From Bacteroides congonensis (lineage in GTDB: Bacteria > Bacteroidota > Bacteroidia > Bacteroidales > Bacteroidaceae), in assembly GCF_900130125.1 (NCBI RefSeq), contig NZ_FQXY01000010.1, forward strand, positions 868,001 to 932,000: a stretch of DNA of 64,000 nt, written 5' to 3'. Of this stretch, positions 5,103 to 51,558 are shown piece after piece. A model generated the notes under the pieces. That model ran no database searches and was not told where the DNA came from. It was given only the letters and a program-made list of their open reading frames with translations. Position numbers and translations under genes: made by a program. Position 1 is the first letter of the stretch. Every line of letters starts with the position of its first letter.

Positions 5103-5815
5103 GGATAGCTTTTAAAAAGAGGTATTTTAAAAATAGCCATTAAATATTCACTTTTCACCAAATCAAACCGTTTCATCGGGGGAATGATTGTTTTTCAAAA
5201 AATTAGTTTAAATCGGTACCATACTCTATAATATTACATTTCAGATGCAATAGGGTAATTATGGGAATATATATTGACGCATATATATCTATGGGATAAT
5301 CCATAAAATAGAAAAAGACGGACGATTTGTTTATTCTATACTCCGAGCCTTATCTATCGATTTGTTCGACACCGAGAAACGATGTGTTTCTCGGTGTCGA
5401 ACACTTTGTTTCTCGGTGTGCAACAGGTCGTTGGTTTTAAAGGGAAAAAGAGGAAAGATAACTATTTATATATCAATATATTACAGAATCATACTCTTCG
5501 TTTGGAATGTTTAAGAAATTTGTTTACCCATTTTAATAGGTTGAGTCATCTTTAATACTTATTTTATTACAATAATAATTACACATAACTGTTTTATCTT
5601 TTGTTCTTATGTTCTTCTGTCTAAAATGTTTCAGTCCACAGGTAAGCAACCATAAGCCCACATGGTGAGTATATATGCCTACCAAGCTAAATATATAGAT
5701 TTAGCGCATAAATTAGTTTATCATACAAAGTCTGGCAATCAGACAACTCTTTGTTGAAATAAGGGAATTACAGATATATTTTGCCTAAAATAAGAAATGA
5801 CAGTATAAATTGAGC
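5103..5815. other. Gene-free region between susC and the AAA-ATPase gene
   Basis: About 700 bp of AT-rich sequence without a supported gene. It holds the 22-bp-period array at 5363-5428. The rest, including 5450-5815, shows no recognisable RNA gene, attachment site or open frame of note. It lies upstream of the minus-strand susC and downstream of the 3' end of the minus-strand ATPase gene, so it may contain control sequence for the former. Confidence 0.6.
5363..5428. repeat. 22-bp-period repeat array, locus A (three units)
   Basis: Three adjacent 22-bp units start at 5363, 5385 and 5407, each reading TGTT-N11-AAC-N4. Units 2 and 3 share the core TCTCGGTGT. Unit 1 carries the reverse complement of that core, so units 1 and 2 also form a perfect 16-bp hairpin (5365-5380 with 5386-5401, loop of 5). 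A degenerate fourth unit may follow at 5429. The same frame recurs at 16276-16385 and 48494-48603. Function is unknown. Confidence 0.75.
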
Positions 5816-16275: not shown

Positions 16276-16385
16276 GCTTCCTTTAAAAGAAACGAAGGGT
16301 TTGATTATAGCAAACGGACGGTTTGTTTAAACCAAACAGAGGGTTTGATTACGGCAAACGGACCGTTTAATTACACCATATCGTG
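16276..16385. repeat. 22-bp-period repeat array, locus B (three good units, two degenerate)
   Basis: Three consecutive 22-bp units start at 16298, 16320 and 16342 and read GGTT-N11-AAC-N4. Units 1 and 3 are nearly identical (TTTGATTA, then GCAAACGGAC); the middle unit has the palindromic core TTTAAA. Degenerate units flank them at 16276 (GCTT in place of GGTT, AAC kept) and at 16364 (CGTT kept, AAC lost). Each good unit is a partial dyad, GGTTTG facing CAAAC. Frame and period equal those of loci A and C; the core sequence does not. Confidence 0.75.
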
Positions 16386-16515: not shown

Positions 16516-16580
16516 ATTCCCCGTTATATGAAAGTTCCTTGTATCCGGAGACAGGCAGAAACTTTCATATAGCGGGGAAT
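16516..16580. terminator. Long hairpin, bidirectional terminator
   Basis: Two 21-nt arms (16516-16536 and 16560-16580) are complementary except for one T:G wobble, with a 23-nt loop. The hairpin lies 41 bp downstream of the end of the minus-strand PUL operon and also downstream of the plus-strand AraC-type gene. T-rich sequence follows on the plus side. Confidence 0.7.
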
Positions 16581-36346: not shown

Positions 36347-36841
36347 CGTTGAAATTATCTGTGACATTTTTGTTCTTATTTTAAGTATTATACGGGGAAA
36401 AACAAAAATGTCACAGAACTAATAATCAATCATTTACCCCTAAAAATCGTCCTATTTTAAGAGAAGTTCACAAAAAACAATAGGATGTTTTTGCTTTTTT
36501 CTGCGAGAAAACTGCATTTTCTTTGTAACATTCTATTTATTAATGCATTACATCCGCTTTTTGGTCTTTCTTCCCCCAAAAACATTCCTTCCAAAGCAGT
36601 ATCTGCTTACACTTGGGCAACTTCCATGACGGACTTGGGCAACCATCCGGATACACAAGTGCAACAACACAGTTGCTCAAGTGCATTTGATTAATATATG
36701 TGGAAGAATCGGTGAACAGACAGGAAGAAGCCATTAGTTTATATAGAAGAAATCATTAATACTACCTGATGGATAAATGTAATTGTGCATTAGTATACAT
36801 CTTAAATCCGACATATATCTTGTAAATGATGAATCCGAGAT
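36347..36841. other. Gene-free region between remnants
   Basis: It contains the perfect 17-bp inverted repeat at 36358-36417 and a weaker pair (CCTATT near 36452, AATAGG near 36479). Its last 40 bp or so, from about 36800, resemble the sequence before the broken GNAT copy at 42064. No gene is supported. Confidence 0.5.
36358..36417. repeat. Perfect 17-bp inverted repeat
   Basis: TCTGTGACATTTTTGTT at 36358-36374 has its exact reverse complement at 36401-36417, with a 26-nt loop. It begins 12 bp after the stop of the nuclease remnant. It may be that gene's old terminator or the ends of a small non-autonomous element; neither is proven. Confidence 0.6.
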
Positions 36842-48050: not shown

Positions 48051-48133
48051 GTCTTATTTAATTAGAATTTATCACTTACTATAAATACACTTCAAATCTT
48101 GTTGTCCCCGTACGAAAATCCTTTTTTATTTGT

Positions 48134-48141
48134 CAAATGTA
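48134..48141 (-). promoter_or_regulatory. Putative -7 box (TACATTTG) of the sulfatase gene
   Basis: On the minus strand TACATTTG fits TAnnTTTG, 84 bp upstream of the sulfatase ATG. It is a motif match only. Confidence 0.38.
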
Positions 48142-48294
48142 CAATAATTCTATCACCTGGTCTTAATATACACTAGAAAAAAGCTGCCTCATTTCTAAAA
48201 CAGCCTACTATTATTTAGGGCAATCGCATCAAAAGTTTGTTTCATTTCGATACTGTTTTGAACAAAATCATAATAGTTCCTGCATTACATAGAG

Positions 48295-48388
48295 TTTAAA
48301 ATGATATAATTATCTTGCACACCTACACTCTTTGCATCTACTTGATTGATACATAGAGATATAAGCGTGTGCAAGATGCCGTTGCAGA
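48295..48388. repeat. Left arm of a 94-bp inverted repeat around the insertion sequence
   Basis: These 94 bp recur as reverse complement at 50498-50591 with three mismatches by eye. Inside the arm, ATCTTGCACAC and GTGTGCAAGAT form a smaller dyad, and further GTGCAAGAT copies follow just beyond (48392-48400, 48407-48415 inverted). The arm lies upstream of the sulfatase gene. I do not recognise the element. Confidence 0.85.
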
Positions 48389-48493
48389 TGTGTGCAAGAT
48401 AAAAGTATCTTGCACGCTTTGTCTTTTTCAAAAAGTTCCTGATAATTCCCGAAAACTATGCAGTCATTTATAGAATCAAGGCATCAAATGACT

Positions 48494-48603
48494 TGTTCAA
48501 AGTAATGAAACAAAGTGTTTGCTATAGAGAAACACTTTGTTTCAAGTAAGTAAACACTTTGTTTCAAGCCTATGAACACTTTGTTTCAAGTGCTTGAAAA
48601 AAA
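48494..48603. repeat. 22-bp-period repeat array, locus C (five units)
   Basis: Five uninterrupted 22-bp units start at 48494, 48516, 48538, 48560 and 48582. All begin TGTT. Units 1-4 have AAC at positions 16-18, and unit 5 has AAA. Units 2-4 end ACTT. The 11-bp core varies; units 3-5 share TCAAG at its start. It lies in the spacer between the 94-bp left arm and the insertion sequence. Frame and period equal loci A and B, and the unit end AAC-ACTT is shared with locus A. Confidence 0.8.
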
Positions 48604-48645
48604 TGGGAACTACCGTCAACAGGAATGAATAGCTAAGTAATCACA

Positions 48646-50502
48646 GCAGACGAGGTTGTGTCAAAACGCTGACACAGCCTTTTTTTATGCGCAAAGCCCA
48701 GACTTTCTCAAGCCCGGGCTTTGTTATTACCCAAAGTTTTCGTATCTTTAGGTATAAAGTTTTTCGTTATGGCAAAGTTACATTTTCGTCCTTACATTCC
48801 CAACCAAACCGTTCTTTTTCCACAAAGAATTGATGAAAACATAGCTGCGACCGACCCAGTCCGCATCGTGAATGCTGTTATTGACAATCTCAATCTTGAG
48901 AGTTTCAAGAAGCTTTATAAGGAAACGGGCCGTTGTCCTTATCATCCTAAAATGATGCTTAAGGTGATAATCTACGCCTACATGAATAATATCTATTCTT
49001 GCCGTAAAATAGAGAAGCACCTCCTTCGTGACATTCATTATATTTGGCTTGCCGGTAATGAGCATCCGGATTTTATCACGATCAACCGTTTTCGTAACCG
49101 TGTAAAGGAGGAAATAAATAATGTATTTACCCAGTTGGTTCTTGTCCTTGCCGATAAAGGTTTCATCAGCCTTGATGTAGAGTATATCGACGGCACCAAG
49201 ATTGAATCCAAAGCCAACAAATATACTTTTGTCTGGCGCAAGACAGTCGAACGGAACCGTACGATACTAATGGATAAAATCCGTATTCTCTTGGAGCAGG
49301 TGGATCAAGCCATTGCACAGGAGAACTCTATAAAAGACACATCCGTGGAGTTTACTCCCTGCAGGCTCTCTGACATAGTGGATGAACTTAAAGAAGCCCT
49401 GGAACGCCAGCCTGCAACAAAGGATAAGGAAGAAAAGAAAGCCCTGCGCAAAAAGAAGAAGCAGGTCATGGAACTTGAAGGGTATCGTGACAAGCTGATA
49501 GAATACAACAATCACCTTGATACCCTTGGAGAACGTAACTCCTATTCCAAAACCGATCCTGGTGCCACATTCATGCGCATGAAAGAAGATGCCATGAAGA
49601 ACGGGCAGACCAAACCCGGATATAATCTGCAAATAGGTACTGAAAACCAATTCATCACAGACTTCCGTCTGTTTCCCAACCCTACCGATACACTGACCCT
49701 CATACCTTTTTTCCACTCTTTCCAGTACCGCTATAACCGTTTACCGAATATCTGTGTGGCAGACTCCGGTTACGGTTCGGAAGAAAATTACCGGTTCATG
49801 CAGGAGAATGGGATAGAAGCCTTCATCAAGTACAATTACTTCCATAAAGAACAGCGTCCTCGTTATACTCCCAACCCGTTCCATGCCGAAAGTCTCCATT
49901 ACAATGCCCAAGAGGATTATTACGTTTGTCCTATGGGACAGCACATGAACCGTATAGGAACCAAACGTGACAAGACAGCGAGCGGATACATCATCGAAAG
50001 TGCCCGGTATAAAGCAAAAAGATGCGAAGGTTGCCCTTTGCGTGGCAGTTGTTTTAAAGCTCGGGGGAACCGTATTATAGAAGTCAACCACCGATTAAAT
50101 CAATACAAACGGCAGGCACGGGAAAGGTTGCTCTCAGAAGAAGGTATCAAGCATAGAGGCAGGAGGTGTATAGAACCAGAGGCTGTGTTTGGACAAATGA
50201 AATACAACATGGCATACAGAAGATTCCGGCATGTGGGAGAAGACAAGGTTACAATGGACTTTGCTTTCTTTGCTATAGCCTTTAATATCAAAAAAATGTG
50301 TGCTAAACTGATAAAAGAAGGAAAGGGGCTCATTACAGTTGCCAAATATATGTTTATGGGACTATTTATAACCCGATATAATTGGAATATAGCAACTTGT
50401 TGCCAAATGCATGAGGAAAAAGCAGCATAGCCAAAAGAAAATATAGCAGAACTGTAAAATATAAAAGAGGTTGTGCCAACGTTTTGACACAACCTCGTCT
50501 GC
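48646..50502. mobile_element. IS1182-like insertion sequence
   Basis: Terminal inverted repeats of about 34 bp start GCAGACGAGGTTGTGTC at the left (48646) and end with the reverse complement at 50502. They agree except for about three positions. The first five bases may belong to the target rather than the element. No clear target-site duplication is seen beyond GCA. The element encodes one transposase on the plus strand. Both ends and the coding frame are intact, so it may still be mobile. Confidence 0.85.
48769..50430 (+). CDS. IS1182-family transposase
   Basis: From ATG 48769 the protein has 553 residues. The N-terminal transposase-associated domain reads FRPYIPNQTVLFPQRIDENI and YHPKMMLKVIIYAYMNNIYSCRKIE. 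It is followed by the DDE domain: VEYIDGTKIESKANKYTFVW supplies the first aspartate, CVADSGYGSEENYRFMQ the second, and PEAVFGQMKYNMAYRRFRHVG the glutamate region. A cysteine cluster CEGCPLRGSCFK lies between. The length is normal and no frameshift is seen. The longer frame from 48721 runs into the terminal repeat region and is not used. Confidence 0.94.
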   Translation: MAKLHFRPYIPNQTVLFPQRIDENIAATDPVRIVNAVIDNLNLESFKKLYKETGRCPYHPKMMLKVIIYAYMNNIYSCRKIEKHLLRDIHYIWLAGNEHPDFITINRFRNRVKEEINNVFTQLVLVLADKGFISLDVEYIDGTKIESKANKYTFVWRKTVERNRTILMDKIRILLEQVDQAIAQENSIKDTSVEFTPCRLSDIVDELKEALERQPATKDKEEKKALRKKKKQVMELEGYRDKLIEYNNHLDTLGERNSYSKTDPGATFMRMKEDAMKNGQTKPGYNLQIGTENQFITDFRLFPNPTDTLTLIPFFHSFQYRYNRLPNICVADSGYGSEENYRFMQENGIEAFIKYNYFHKEQRPRYTPNPFHAESLHYNAQEDYYVCPMGQHMNRIGTKRDKTASGYIIESARYKAKRCEGCPLRGSCFKARGNRIIEVNHRLNQYKRQARERLLSEEGIKHRGRRCIEPEAVFGQMKYNMAYRRFRHVGEDKVTMDFAFFAIAFNIKKMCAKLIKEGKGLITVAKYMFMGLFITRYNWNIATCCQMHEEKAA

Positions 50503-50591
50503 AACGGTATCTTGCACACGCTTATATCTCTATGTGTCAATCAAGTAGATACAAAGAGTGTAGGTGTGCAAGATAATTATATCATTTTAAA
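50498..50591. repeat. Right arm of the 94-bp inverted repeat
   Basis: This is the reverse complement of 48295-48388 with three mismatches. It starts inside or directly at the right end of the insertion sequence, because TCTGC is common to both. Confidence 0.85.
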
Positions 50592-50653
50592 TCTTGATGA
50601 AGCTAAATACTTGGCTTATTTCTGCACTGTTGCGAACTAAACAAGTTATAAAA

Positions 50654-50729
50654 TTTAGGCACGGATTTCACGGTTTTAGCATAGTGAGTGCGCAAAGCTA
50701 CCGTGTAATCCGCGTAATCCGTGCCTAAA
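50654..50729. repeat. Inverted repeat with GCACGGATT ends
   Basis: TTTAGGCACGGATT at 50654-50667 is exactly complementary to 50716-50729, and the inner part holds further pieces (ACGGT with ACCGT, and AATCCGCG). It lies downstream of the radical SAM gene's stop (50785, minus strand) and may terminate it. Confidence 0.65.
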
Positions 50730-50784
50730 AAGAATCATAAGTATTTGATTCATTTTCGCACGATTATGAATAAATAGTCACATG

Positions 50785-51558
50785 CTAATAAGAAGCTGTT
50801 GCCGGAATTCCGGCTTTCTCTATCAACTCTACAATACGGTCTAATTCCCCGTGGGTAGCTTTCTGCAAATCATGGTCGGGTGTTTCACGGTCAATCGTGT
50901 ATATCATAACCTGACGGGGAGCGATTTCTTTCACCGCTGCTATCCAGGGAAGTACATATTTATCGGATGTATTATCCATATCTTTTCCCTGATAAGCTCC
51001 TTTCAGGAACATCGTCTGTACAATACAGTTTCCTTTGAATTCTTTCATCTTTTCGATAATATTCCTCACGGAATATTTTCCATTCGGACGGTCTAATTGA
51101 CGAATATATTCTTCATCCACCGTATCCAGTTTCAGGATATTGTTATCTATCTTGTTCAACGCTTCGAATACGGCAGGACGGTCGATAAACGTAGAGTTGC
51201 TCAATACACTTACTTTCGCCTCAGGAAAATACTTGTCGCGAAGTGCAAGCGTATCTTCTATGATTTCCGGGAAATGGGGATGCGCAGTCGGCTCACCGTT
51301 TCCGGCAAATGTCAACACATCGGGAGCAGGGCCGTTTGCCTGCATATCTTTCAGTTTCTCTTCAAGAGCCGTACGGACTTCCACACGGGTAGGGAGAAGC
51401 TTCTTCGTACGGCGCTCGGCATTGAAGCCACATTCACAGTAAATGCAGTCGAATGAACAAACTTTACCGTCATCCGGTAATAAATTGATTCCCAAAGAAA
51501 CACCCAAACGGCGGGAATGGATAGGGCCGAAGATGGGTGAAGGAAAAATAATAGTCAT
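50785..51558 (-). CDS. Radical SAM protein (COG0731-like)
   Basis: The 257-residue protein has the 4Fe-4S motif C-x3-C-x2-C at Cys-34, 38 and 41 (VCSFDCIYCECGF). It is preceded by FGPIHSRRLGVSLGINLLP, characteristic of the COG0731 group. VLTFAGNGEPTAHPHFPEII contains the SAM-binding GNGEPT variant of the GGE motif. Relatives are often annotated as wyosine-base-formation-like or activating proteins, but the role in Bacteroides is not established. It stands alone between the insertion-sequence region and the metalloprotease locus; sulfatase maturation is unlikely because anSME enzymes are longer and carry extra cluster-binding domains. Confidence 0.88.
   Translation of the reverse strand: MTIIFPSPIFGPIHSRRLGVSLGINLLPDDGKVCSFDCIYCECGFNAERRTKKLLPTRVEVRTALEEKLKDMQANGPAPDVLTFAGNGEPTAHPHFPEIIEDTLALRDKYFPEAKVSVLSNSTFIDRPAVFEALNKIDNNILKLDTVDEEYIRQLDRPNGKYSVRNIIEKMKEFKGNCIVQTMFLKGAYQGKDMDNTSDKYVLPWIAAVKEIAPRQVMIYTIDRETPDHDLQKATHGELDRIVELIEKAGIPATASY

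Follow-up and report, generated by a model that had tools for sequence, protein, structure and literature searches.

A 22-bp ladder of inverted half-sites in Bacteroides congonensis: core of a MITE-like element and possible operator array

We asked what an intergenic array of five gapless 22-bp units in Bacteroides congonensis represents. The array (locus C, 48494–48603, unstranded) lies in a stretch of 64,000 nucleotides, hereafter the window, and was defined by sequence read-out and by its genome matches. It is a ladder of the form GTTYC-N7-GRAAC-N5; units 1–4 carry the complete GTT-N11-AAC, and the fifth is degenerate in its right arm (GAAAA, without AAC). The earlier note had described five contiguous units with GTT and AAC fixed in every one; the contiguity held, and the fixed AAC failed in unit 5. 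It had also reported two further loci with the same period and frame. The period was confirmed at both, with three full units each; the arms were not alike. Locus A (5363–5428, unstranded) is a GTTYC/GRAAC ladder with all three units full, units 1 and 2 forming a perfect 18-bp inverted repeat (5363–5380 / 5386–5403), whereas locus B (16276–16385, unstranded) has GTTTG/CAAAC arms, unchanged in two relatives, in three full units (16298–16363) with one degenerate unit on each side. Directly downstream of locus B, at 16516–16580, is an inverted repeat of 24 bp (92%). When the window was matched against itself at lag 22, the top two places were loci C and B (49/66 matches each), and lags of 20, 21, 23 and 24 gave at most 36/66; locus A reached only 38/66 at lag 22, which is not above an unrelated place at 36598.

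Genome-wide, 24 places matched three consecutive exact frames, compared with 0 for the reversed pattern, and 48 places matched two, compared with 2. Run over 800 kb of unselected DNA from contig C10, a half-site detector returned 7 arrays, of which two were copies of the locus C element; it returned 0 from the same 800 kb reversed and 0 from each of 3 second-order Markov shuffles. The genome scan proposed at the outset thus showed the arrays to be commoner than chance. The frame first given as TGTT-N11-AAC-N4 recurred genome-wide, corrected to a conserved unit GTTYC-N7/8-GRAAC in two geometries (core 7 with spacer 5, and core 8 with spacer 4); many arrays had 6–11 units, 11 being the maximum. 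Unit statistics were taken from 422 units in 69 arrays of this and related genomes, where arrays with a common 25-mer were counted once and some orthologues remain. The (core, spacer) lengths were (8,4) in 194 units, (7,5) in 133, (7,4) in 61 and (8,5) in 34, and 327/422 units were exactly 22 bp long even though core and spacer lengths each vary; this pitch leans to 22 because the GTTTC detector joins only pitches near 22, a bias of which the lag scans are free. The arms were chiefly GTTTC/GAAAC, followed by GTTCC/GGAAC, with the identical arm sequence at many unrelated loci; the second core base was seldom G and the second-last seldom C.

The surroundings of locus C were searched with window positions 48100–50900 as a DNA query against the bacterium's own genome. 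Five other copies were found of an element with long inverted ends, the left part at 95–99% and the right part at 89–93% identity, and the surroundings of these copies differed. In the window the left part, with locus C, spans 48255–48651 (long inverted end about 48295–48418) and the right part, with the other inverted end, 50498–50627, both unstranded and both with outer limits estimated from the flanks common to the copies. Because the surrounding stretch is multi-copy with long inverted ends, locus C was placed at the centre of a MITE-like element, which is a MITE in being short, non-coding, multi-copy and bounded by terminal inverted repeats. The copy ends were compared by eye for a target site duplication, and nothing clear was seen. 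An insertion sequence of 1845 bp (48652–50496, + strand) splits the element and carries a transposase ORF (48721–50430, + strand; DUF772, DDE_Tnp_1_6, DDE_Tnp_1). Its five other listed copies are 100% identical (rounded), so that the insertion is probably recent; intact copies of the element have about 30 non-aligning bp where the insertion sequence sits in the window. At C8, the element of the locus C type has beside it a further transposase-like ORF, distinct from the first (549 aa; L089 4648–6297), by which one of the element's outer flanks seems to have been separated. Window positions 50655–50730 contain a different dispersed repeat, about 75 bp long (TTAGGCACGGATTT...AATCCGTGCCTAAA), which is itself an inverted repeat and was matched at about 20 places in the genome.

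Three classes of outer module were distinguished: class A, clusters of GGTGATAG/CTATCACC; class B, clusters of GTGACAG/CTGTCAC; and class C, the ends of the locus C element. Class A or B clusters lay within 400 bp of 42/97 arrays compared with 0/208 control intergenic regions, the controls being from this genome alone and the 97 arrays including other genomes and orthologues. By array length, modules were present at 28/35 arrays of at least 140 bp, 11/31 of 100–140 bp and 3/31 of the shorter ones. Seeds for classes A, B and C matched on neither side of 44 of the 97 arrays, on one side of 37 and on both sides of 14 (BB 6, CC 6, AA 1, AB 1), 2 more having one testable flank without a match; the seeds undercount modules, as the right-hand class B motifs of L091 were missed by the seed match. 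Flanking inverted repeats stronger than all 208 controls were found in 10/96 arrays, five of these being of the locus C type.

None of the 97 GTTTC arrays lay inside a called gene, in agreement with the claim that the arrays are intergenic. Their gaps were convergent for 23, tandem for 54, divergent for 14 and undetermined for 6, as judged with a hexamer-based gene caller that at times put orthologous arrays in different classes. When only gaps of at least 120 bp were considered, the 34 ladders of every kind in 1.66 Mb fell into convergent gaps in 10 cases, tandem in 19 and divergent in 3, with 2 in none; the background was 74, 297 and 120 gaps, respectively (p 0.02). Divergent depletion by itself gave p 0.054, and in tandem gaps the upstream stop was nearer in only 12/19 ladders; the 3' preference is modest.

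Arrays were found at the matching place in several species, permitting a comparison of arms, cores and flanks. In four orthologous pairs (L084/L241, L249/L278, L260/L273 and L259/L272, counted in one comparison direction, two of the pairs being very close and adding few changes), the four invariant arm bases were changed in 1/224 positions, compared with 5/56 for the variable arm base, 35/207 for cores, 14/107 for spacers and 150/2374 for flanks. The pairs L082/L243 and L091/L257 were omitted, since no alignment of their arrays was possible without large gaps. At locus B the arms were changed in 0/50 positions in each of two relatives, the spacers in 3/25 and 8/25 and the flanks in 25/701 and 43/688; here the cores (0/35 and 1/35) were conserved too. 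At the GH125 locus an array was present in five species, with cores similar in the closest relative and mostly different in the rest. The aspA locus offered no clean empty site because its downstream genes also differ (there was no array in up to 700 bp downstream in 20 relatives' loci, L137 being short), and the queC locus was taken instead. The queC region was matched in 92/99 genomes of the genus. Among the 30 loci fetched, 11 had an array-bearing insert of 433–642 bp between two operon-like neighbour genes, 17 had 20–140 bp and no array, and one (G041) was unreadable; the remaining locus (L299, from G018) had a 621-bp gap without a GTTTC array, compared with the 20–140 bp of the 17 other array-less loci. 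Arrays are thus present or absent by locus and by genome.

The layout recalls two described systems. According to the accessible part of its description (PMC4596501), BrickBuilt of Porphyromonas gingivalis is an intergenic 23-nt array with a leader and a tail, often with just one of these or none, which changes by whole units; 22-nt tandem repeats of strain W83 are mentioned in the same part, which does not say where they lie. As far as that source goes, the present arrays are alike in being intergenic and gapless with units of about 22 nt, in having leader- and tail-like modules that were not found away from an array (modules at 42/97 arrays and 0/208 control gaps, with 0/97 arrays in genes), and in whole-unit gain or loss, as between L259 and L272, where the difference is a single 22-bp unit. 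They differ in that the BrickBuilt unit described there has one 23-nt consensus, whereas here the pitch is 22 and the half-sites are palindromic with variable cores and several arm types. The BrickBuilt unit also scores as palindromic (p 0.014). Within 1.66 Mb of the own genome, the BrickBuilt unit consensus AGAYCATARTATCCTCTCRTRTG reached at best 19/23 (2 places, C7), the reversed control reaching up to 18, and none of three exact 12-mers of the GAGACCTTTGCA-like terminal inverted repeat was found.

For BOX elements the comparison is one of layout alone, and boxB is about 45 bp long. In the accessible part of the BOX study (PMC3049150), outer modules in Streptococcus pneumoniae and S. suis enclose a variable count of central units, the same boxB being flanked in S. 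suis by outer modules of two kinds. The GTTTC ladders with their alternative outer classes A, B and C are arranged like the S. suis elements, whereas boxB, as presented there, is a single sequence family. The earlier note had known of no named family. Our literature search, which covered subscription journals thinly, likewise found no paper on these Bacteroides arrays; the layout is nevertheless that already known from BOX and BrickBuilt, and it is the unit and the ends that differ from BrickBuilt, as judged by sequence against the accessible part of that description.

Two further systems were compared and rejected. REP/BIME sequences, with their RAYT transposases, are multi-copy intergenic palindromes with a gene-end preference; the ladders share the many intergenic palindromes and gene ends, but unlike REP/BIME keep a strict 22-bp tandem pitch. 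A RAYT/REP origin was rejected as Y1_Tnp (PF01797, RAYT-type) had no match in the own genome (G000) or in the ladder-rich genomes G001, G009, G021, G030, G042 and G086; 20/99 genomes of the genus did match, among them the ladder-bearing G012, G044, G047 and G087 with one Y1_Tnp each. The parS consensus half-site TGAAAC resembles a ladder arm, but the ladder arms lie farther apart, and with 3 genome sites at up to 2 mismatches compared with 2 for the reversed 16-bp pattern, parS/ParB was rejected.

We favour, tentatively and at somewhat short of an even chance, the reading of locus C as the core of a BOX/BrickBuilt-like element that is an operator ladder for dimeric DNA-binding proteins which oligomerise, and that may insulate gene ends. 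Observed directly were the arrays, their arm constraint and pitch, the whole-unit change, the outer modules, the insert between operon-like neighbours and the intergenic position. From these we infer a dimeric DNA-binding protein, which would occupy the array as a double-stranded DNA ladder of palindromic sites with half-sites GTTYC and GRAAC at a fixed 22-bp pitch. A length of 22 bp is about two helical turns; the pitch would set the dimers on one DNA face, where they might bind cooperatively as a filament. The ladders lie between genes, at gene ends more often than at shared promoters, and an occupied one could check read-through in the manner of a roadblock or insulator, or could serve regulation or chromatin locally. 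Proteins with a different specificity would recognise the ladders whose arms differ. The view of the array as a ladder of half-sites rather than simple satellite DNA, already taken in the earlier note, is supported by the arm constraint, the intergenic dispersal and the 22-bp pitch across differing arms.

A selfish minisatellite-MITE is possible, if somewhat doubtful. Here the arrays would be cargo or transposition parts of non-autonomous elements without host function, conserved through descent, unit turnover and mobilisation needs. The recurrence of the locus C element in five further copies with differing surroundings, the outer modules beside many arrays, the presence or absence of arrays by locus and genome, and the gain and loss of whole units would all be in keeping with this; however, passive cargo would not be expected to leave orthologous arms unchanged where the rate of change in cores and spacers exceeds that in the flanks, and 44/97 arrays had no recognised module on either side.

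A structure element, with pairing selected in hairpins of mRNA 3' regions (for stability or attenuation) or in cruciforms, we consider unlikely. The variable arm base was independent across the core, with TA in 306 units, TG in 51, CA in 43 and CG in 9 (odds ratio 1.26, p 0.53), and likewise for the spacer (p 1.0). Where arrays were flanked by tandem genes, the transcribed strand had about as many U.G (25) as C.A (27) combinations (p 0.89), with no G.U preference. Because there was neither covariation nor G.U preference, half-sites in double-stranded DNA are favoured over an RNA stem, and the suggestion of an RNA-structure element was not borne out. One arm sequence at many unrelated loci also argues against selected pairing, as does the lack of any Rfam family at gathering score in the window and nine array loci. 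Contrary hints were seen. The base outside the arms was paired in 104/194 units of core 7 (shuffled mean 66) and in 121/228 units of core 8 (shuffled mean 100), an excess of stem-extending pairs that a stem would also produce, and the 23-bp ladder at C11:252530 has a matched two-sided change next to a mismatched unit. The palindromic units with many different arms and the mild gene-end preference would also suit a structure element.

That the units are sites for a site-specific recombinase, with overlap sequences that vary, is very improbable: inverted arms round a variable 7–8 bp core do resemble tyrosine recombinase sites, but other ladders are near-continuous palindromes (e.g., TCACGGCCGTGA), and the units of one array would not be recombination partners, since their cores differ. 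Nothing that spoke for recombination was seen.

The distribution of the GTTTC arrays was patchy. A GTTTC three-repeat pattern matched 62/99 genomes of the genus, in a scan whose reversed control was not clean, as ACTTT spacers ahead of GTTTC yield its letters (39 and 38 reversed-pattern matches in G082). In a phylum sample, another GTTTC pattern matched 29/394 genomes, with more than 2 matches per strand only in G000, G034, G039, G443 and, weakly, G377; in an order sample, 13/148 genomes matched, with more than 2 matches only in the own genus and in G443 (another family) and 1–2 matches in 9 other genomes. An exact four-arm pattern had 0 matches in IMG/VR. At 73–83% identity the array query matched 2 contigs labelled as phage, both unannotated, and 8 records labelled as plasmids; of the latter, 7 were from B. 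finegoldii and 1 was from Parabacteroides distasonis, and 7/8 had no annotated feature under the match. The locus C element query matched no plasmid record; on these grounds a phage or plasmid origin was rejected.

The pitch itself extends beyond the GTTTC arms. A lag-22 scan of 1.66 Mb of the own genome gave 32 places with at least 42/66 matches, whereas other lags from 10 to 59 gave at most 6 each, except lag 44 with 15. Thirteen of the 32 were GTTTC arrays and 19 were beyond the GTTTC detector, with arms that include CTCAT/ATGAG, GTGCCA/TGGCAC, GCTTTA/TAAAGC and TCACGGCCGTGA. These were palindromic at p<=0.05 in 14/19 cases, compared with 7/25 arrays of other lags (Fisher p 0.005); the other 5/19 were not significantly palindromic. 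Near-identical TCACGGCCGTGA ladders at C10:692172 and C11:118276 suggest that other-arm ladders are copied with their surroundings. Two genomes without GTTTC matches (400 kb) gave 3 places at lag 22, 2 at lag 44 and at most 1 at other lags; the ladder palindromes of G014 and G081 were judged by eye. At 17 Bacteroides aspA loci, picked like all the aspA loci irrespective of ladders, lag 22 gave 3 places, one of which (L142) was not palindromic, and lag 23 gave 2; at 63 further aspA loci, mostly of other Bacteroidales genera, there were 4 at lag 22, 1 at lag 23 and at most 2 at other lags. Phocaeicola, Parabacteroides and, weakly, Porphyromonas gulae (not significantly palindromic, p 0.13) were among the hosts of these 22- or 23-bp ladders. 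Palindrome ladders of 23-bp pitch were seen at L139 4551, L140 4719, L202 2770 and C11:252530, their hosts being B. nordii, B. salyersiae, a Parabacteroides MAG and the own genome. It is conceivable, though we hold it rather doubtful, that the Bacteroidales have a general class of ladders whose defining traits are palindromic rungs and a pitch of 22 or at times 23 bp, and not sequence. Each would have its own oligomerising DNA-binding protein out of one family, and together they would form a chromatin- or insulator-like layer of intergenic DNA that is partly spread by BOX-like elements, with BrickBuilt as a case peculiar to one species.

If the operator-ladder reading is true, unannotated intergenic repeats of common gut bacteria would become recognisable and testable sites, and BrickBuilt- and BOX-like elements would be given a common logic of fixed pitch and free sequence. 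It would also point to a group of DNA-binding proteins able to count helical turns.
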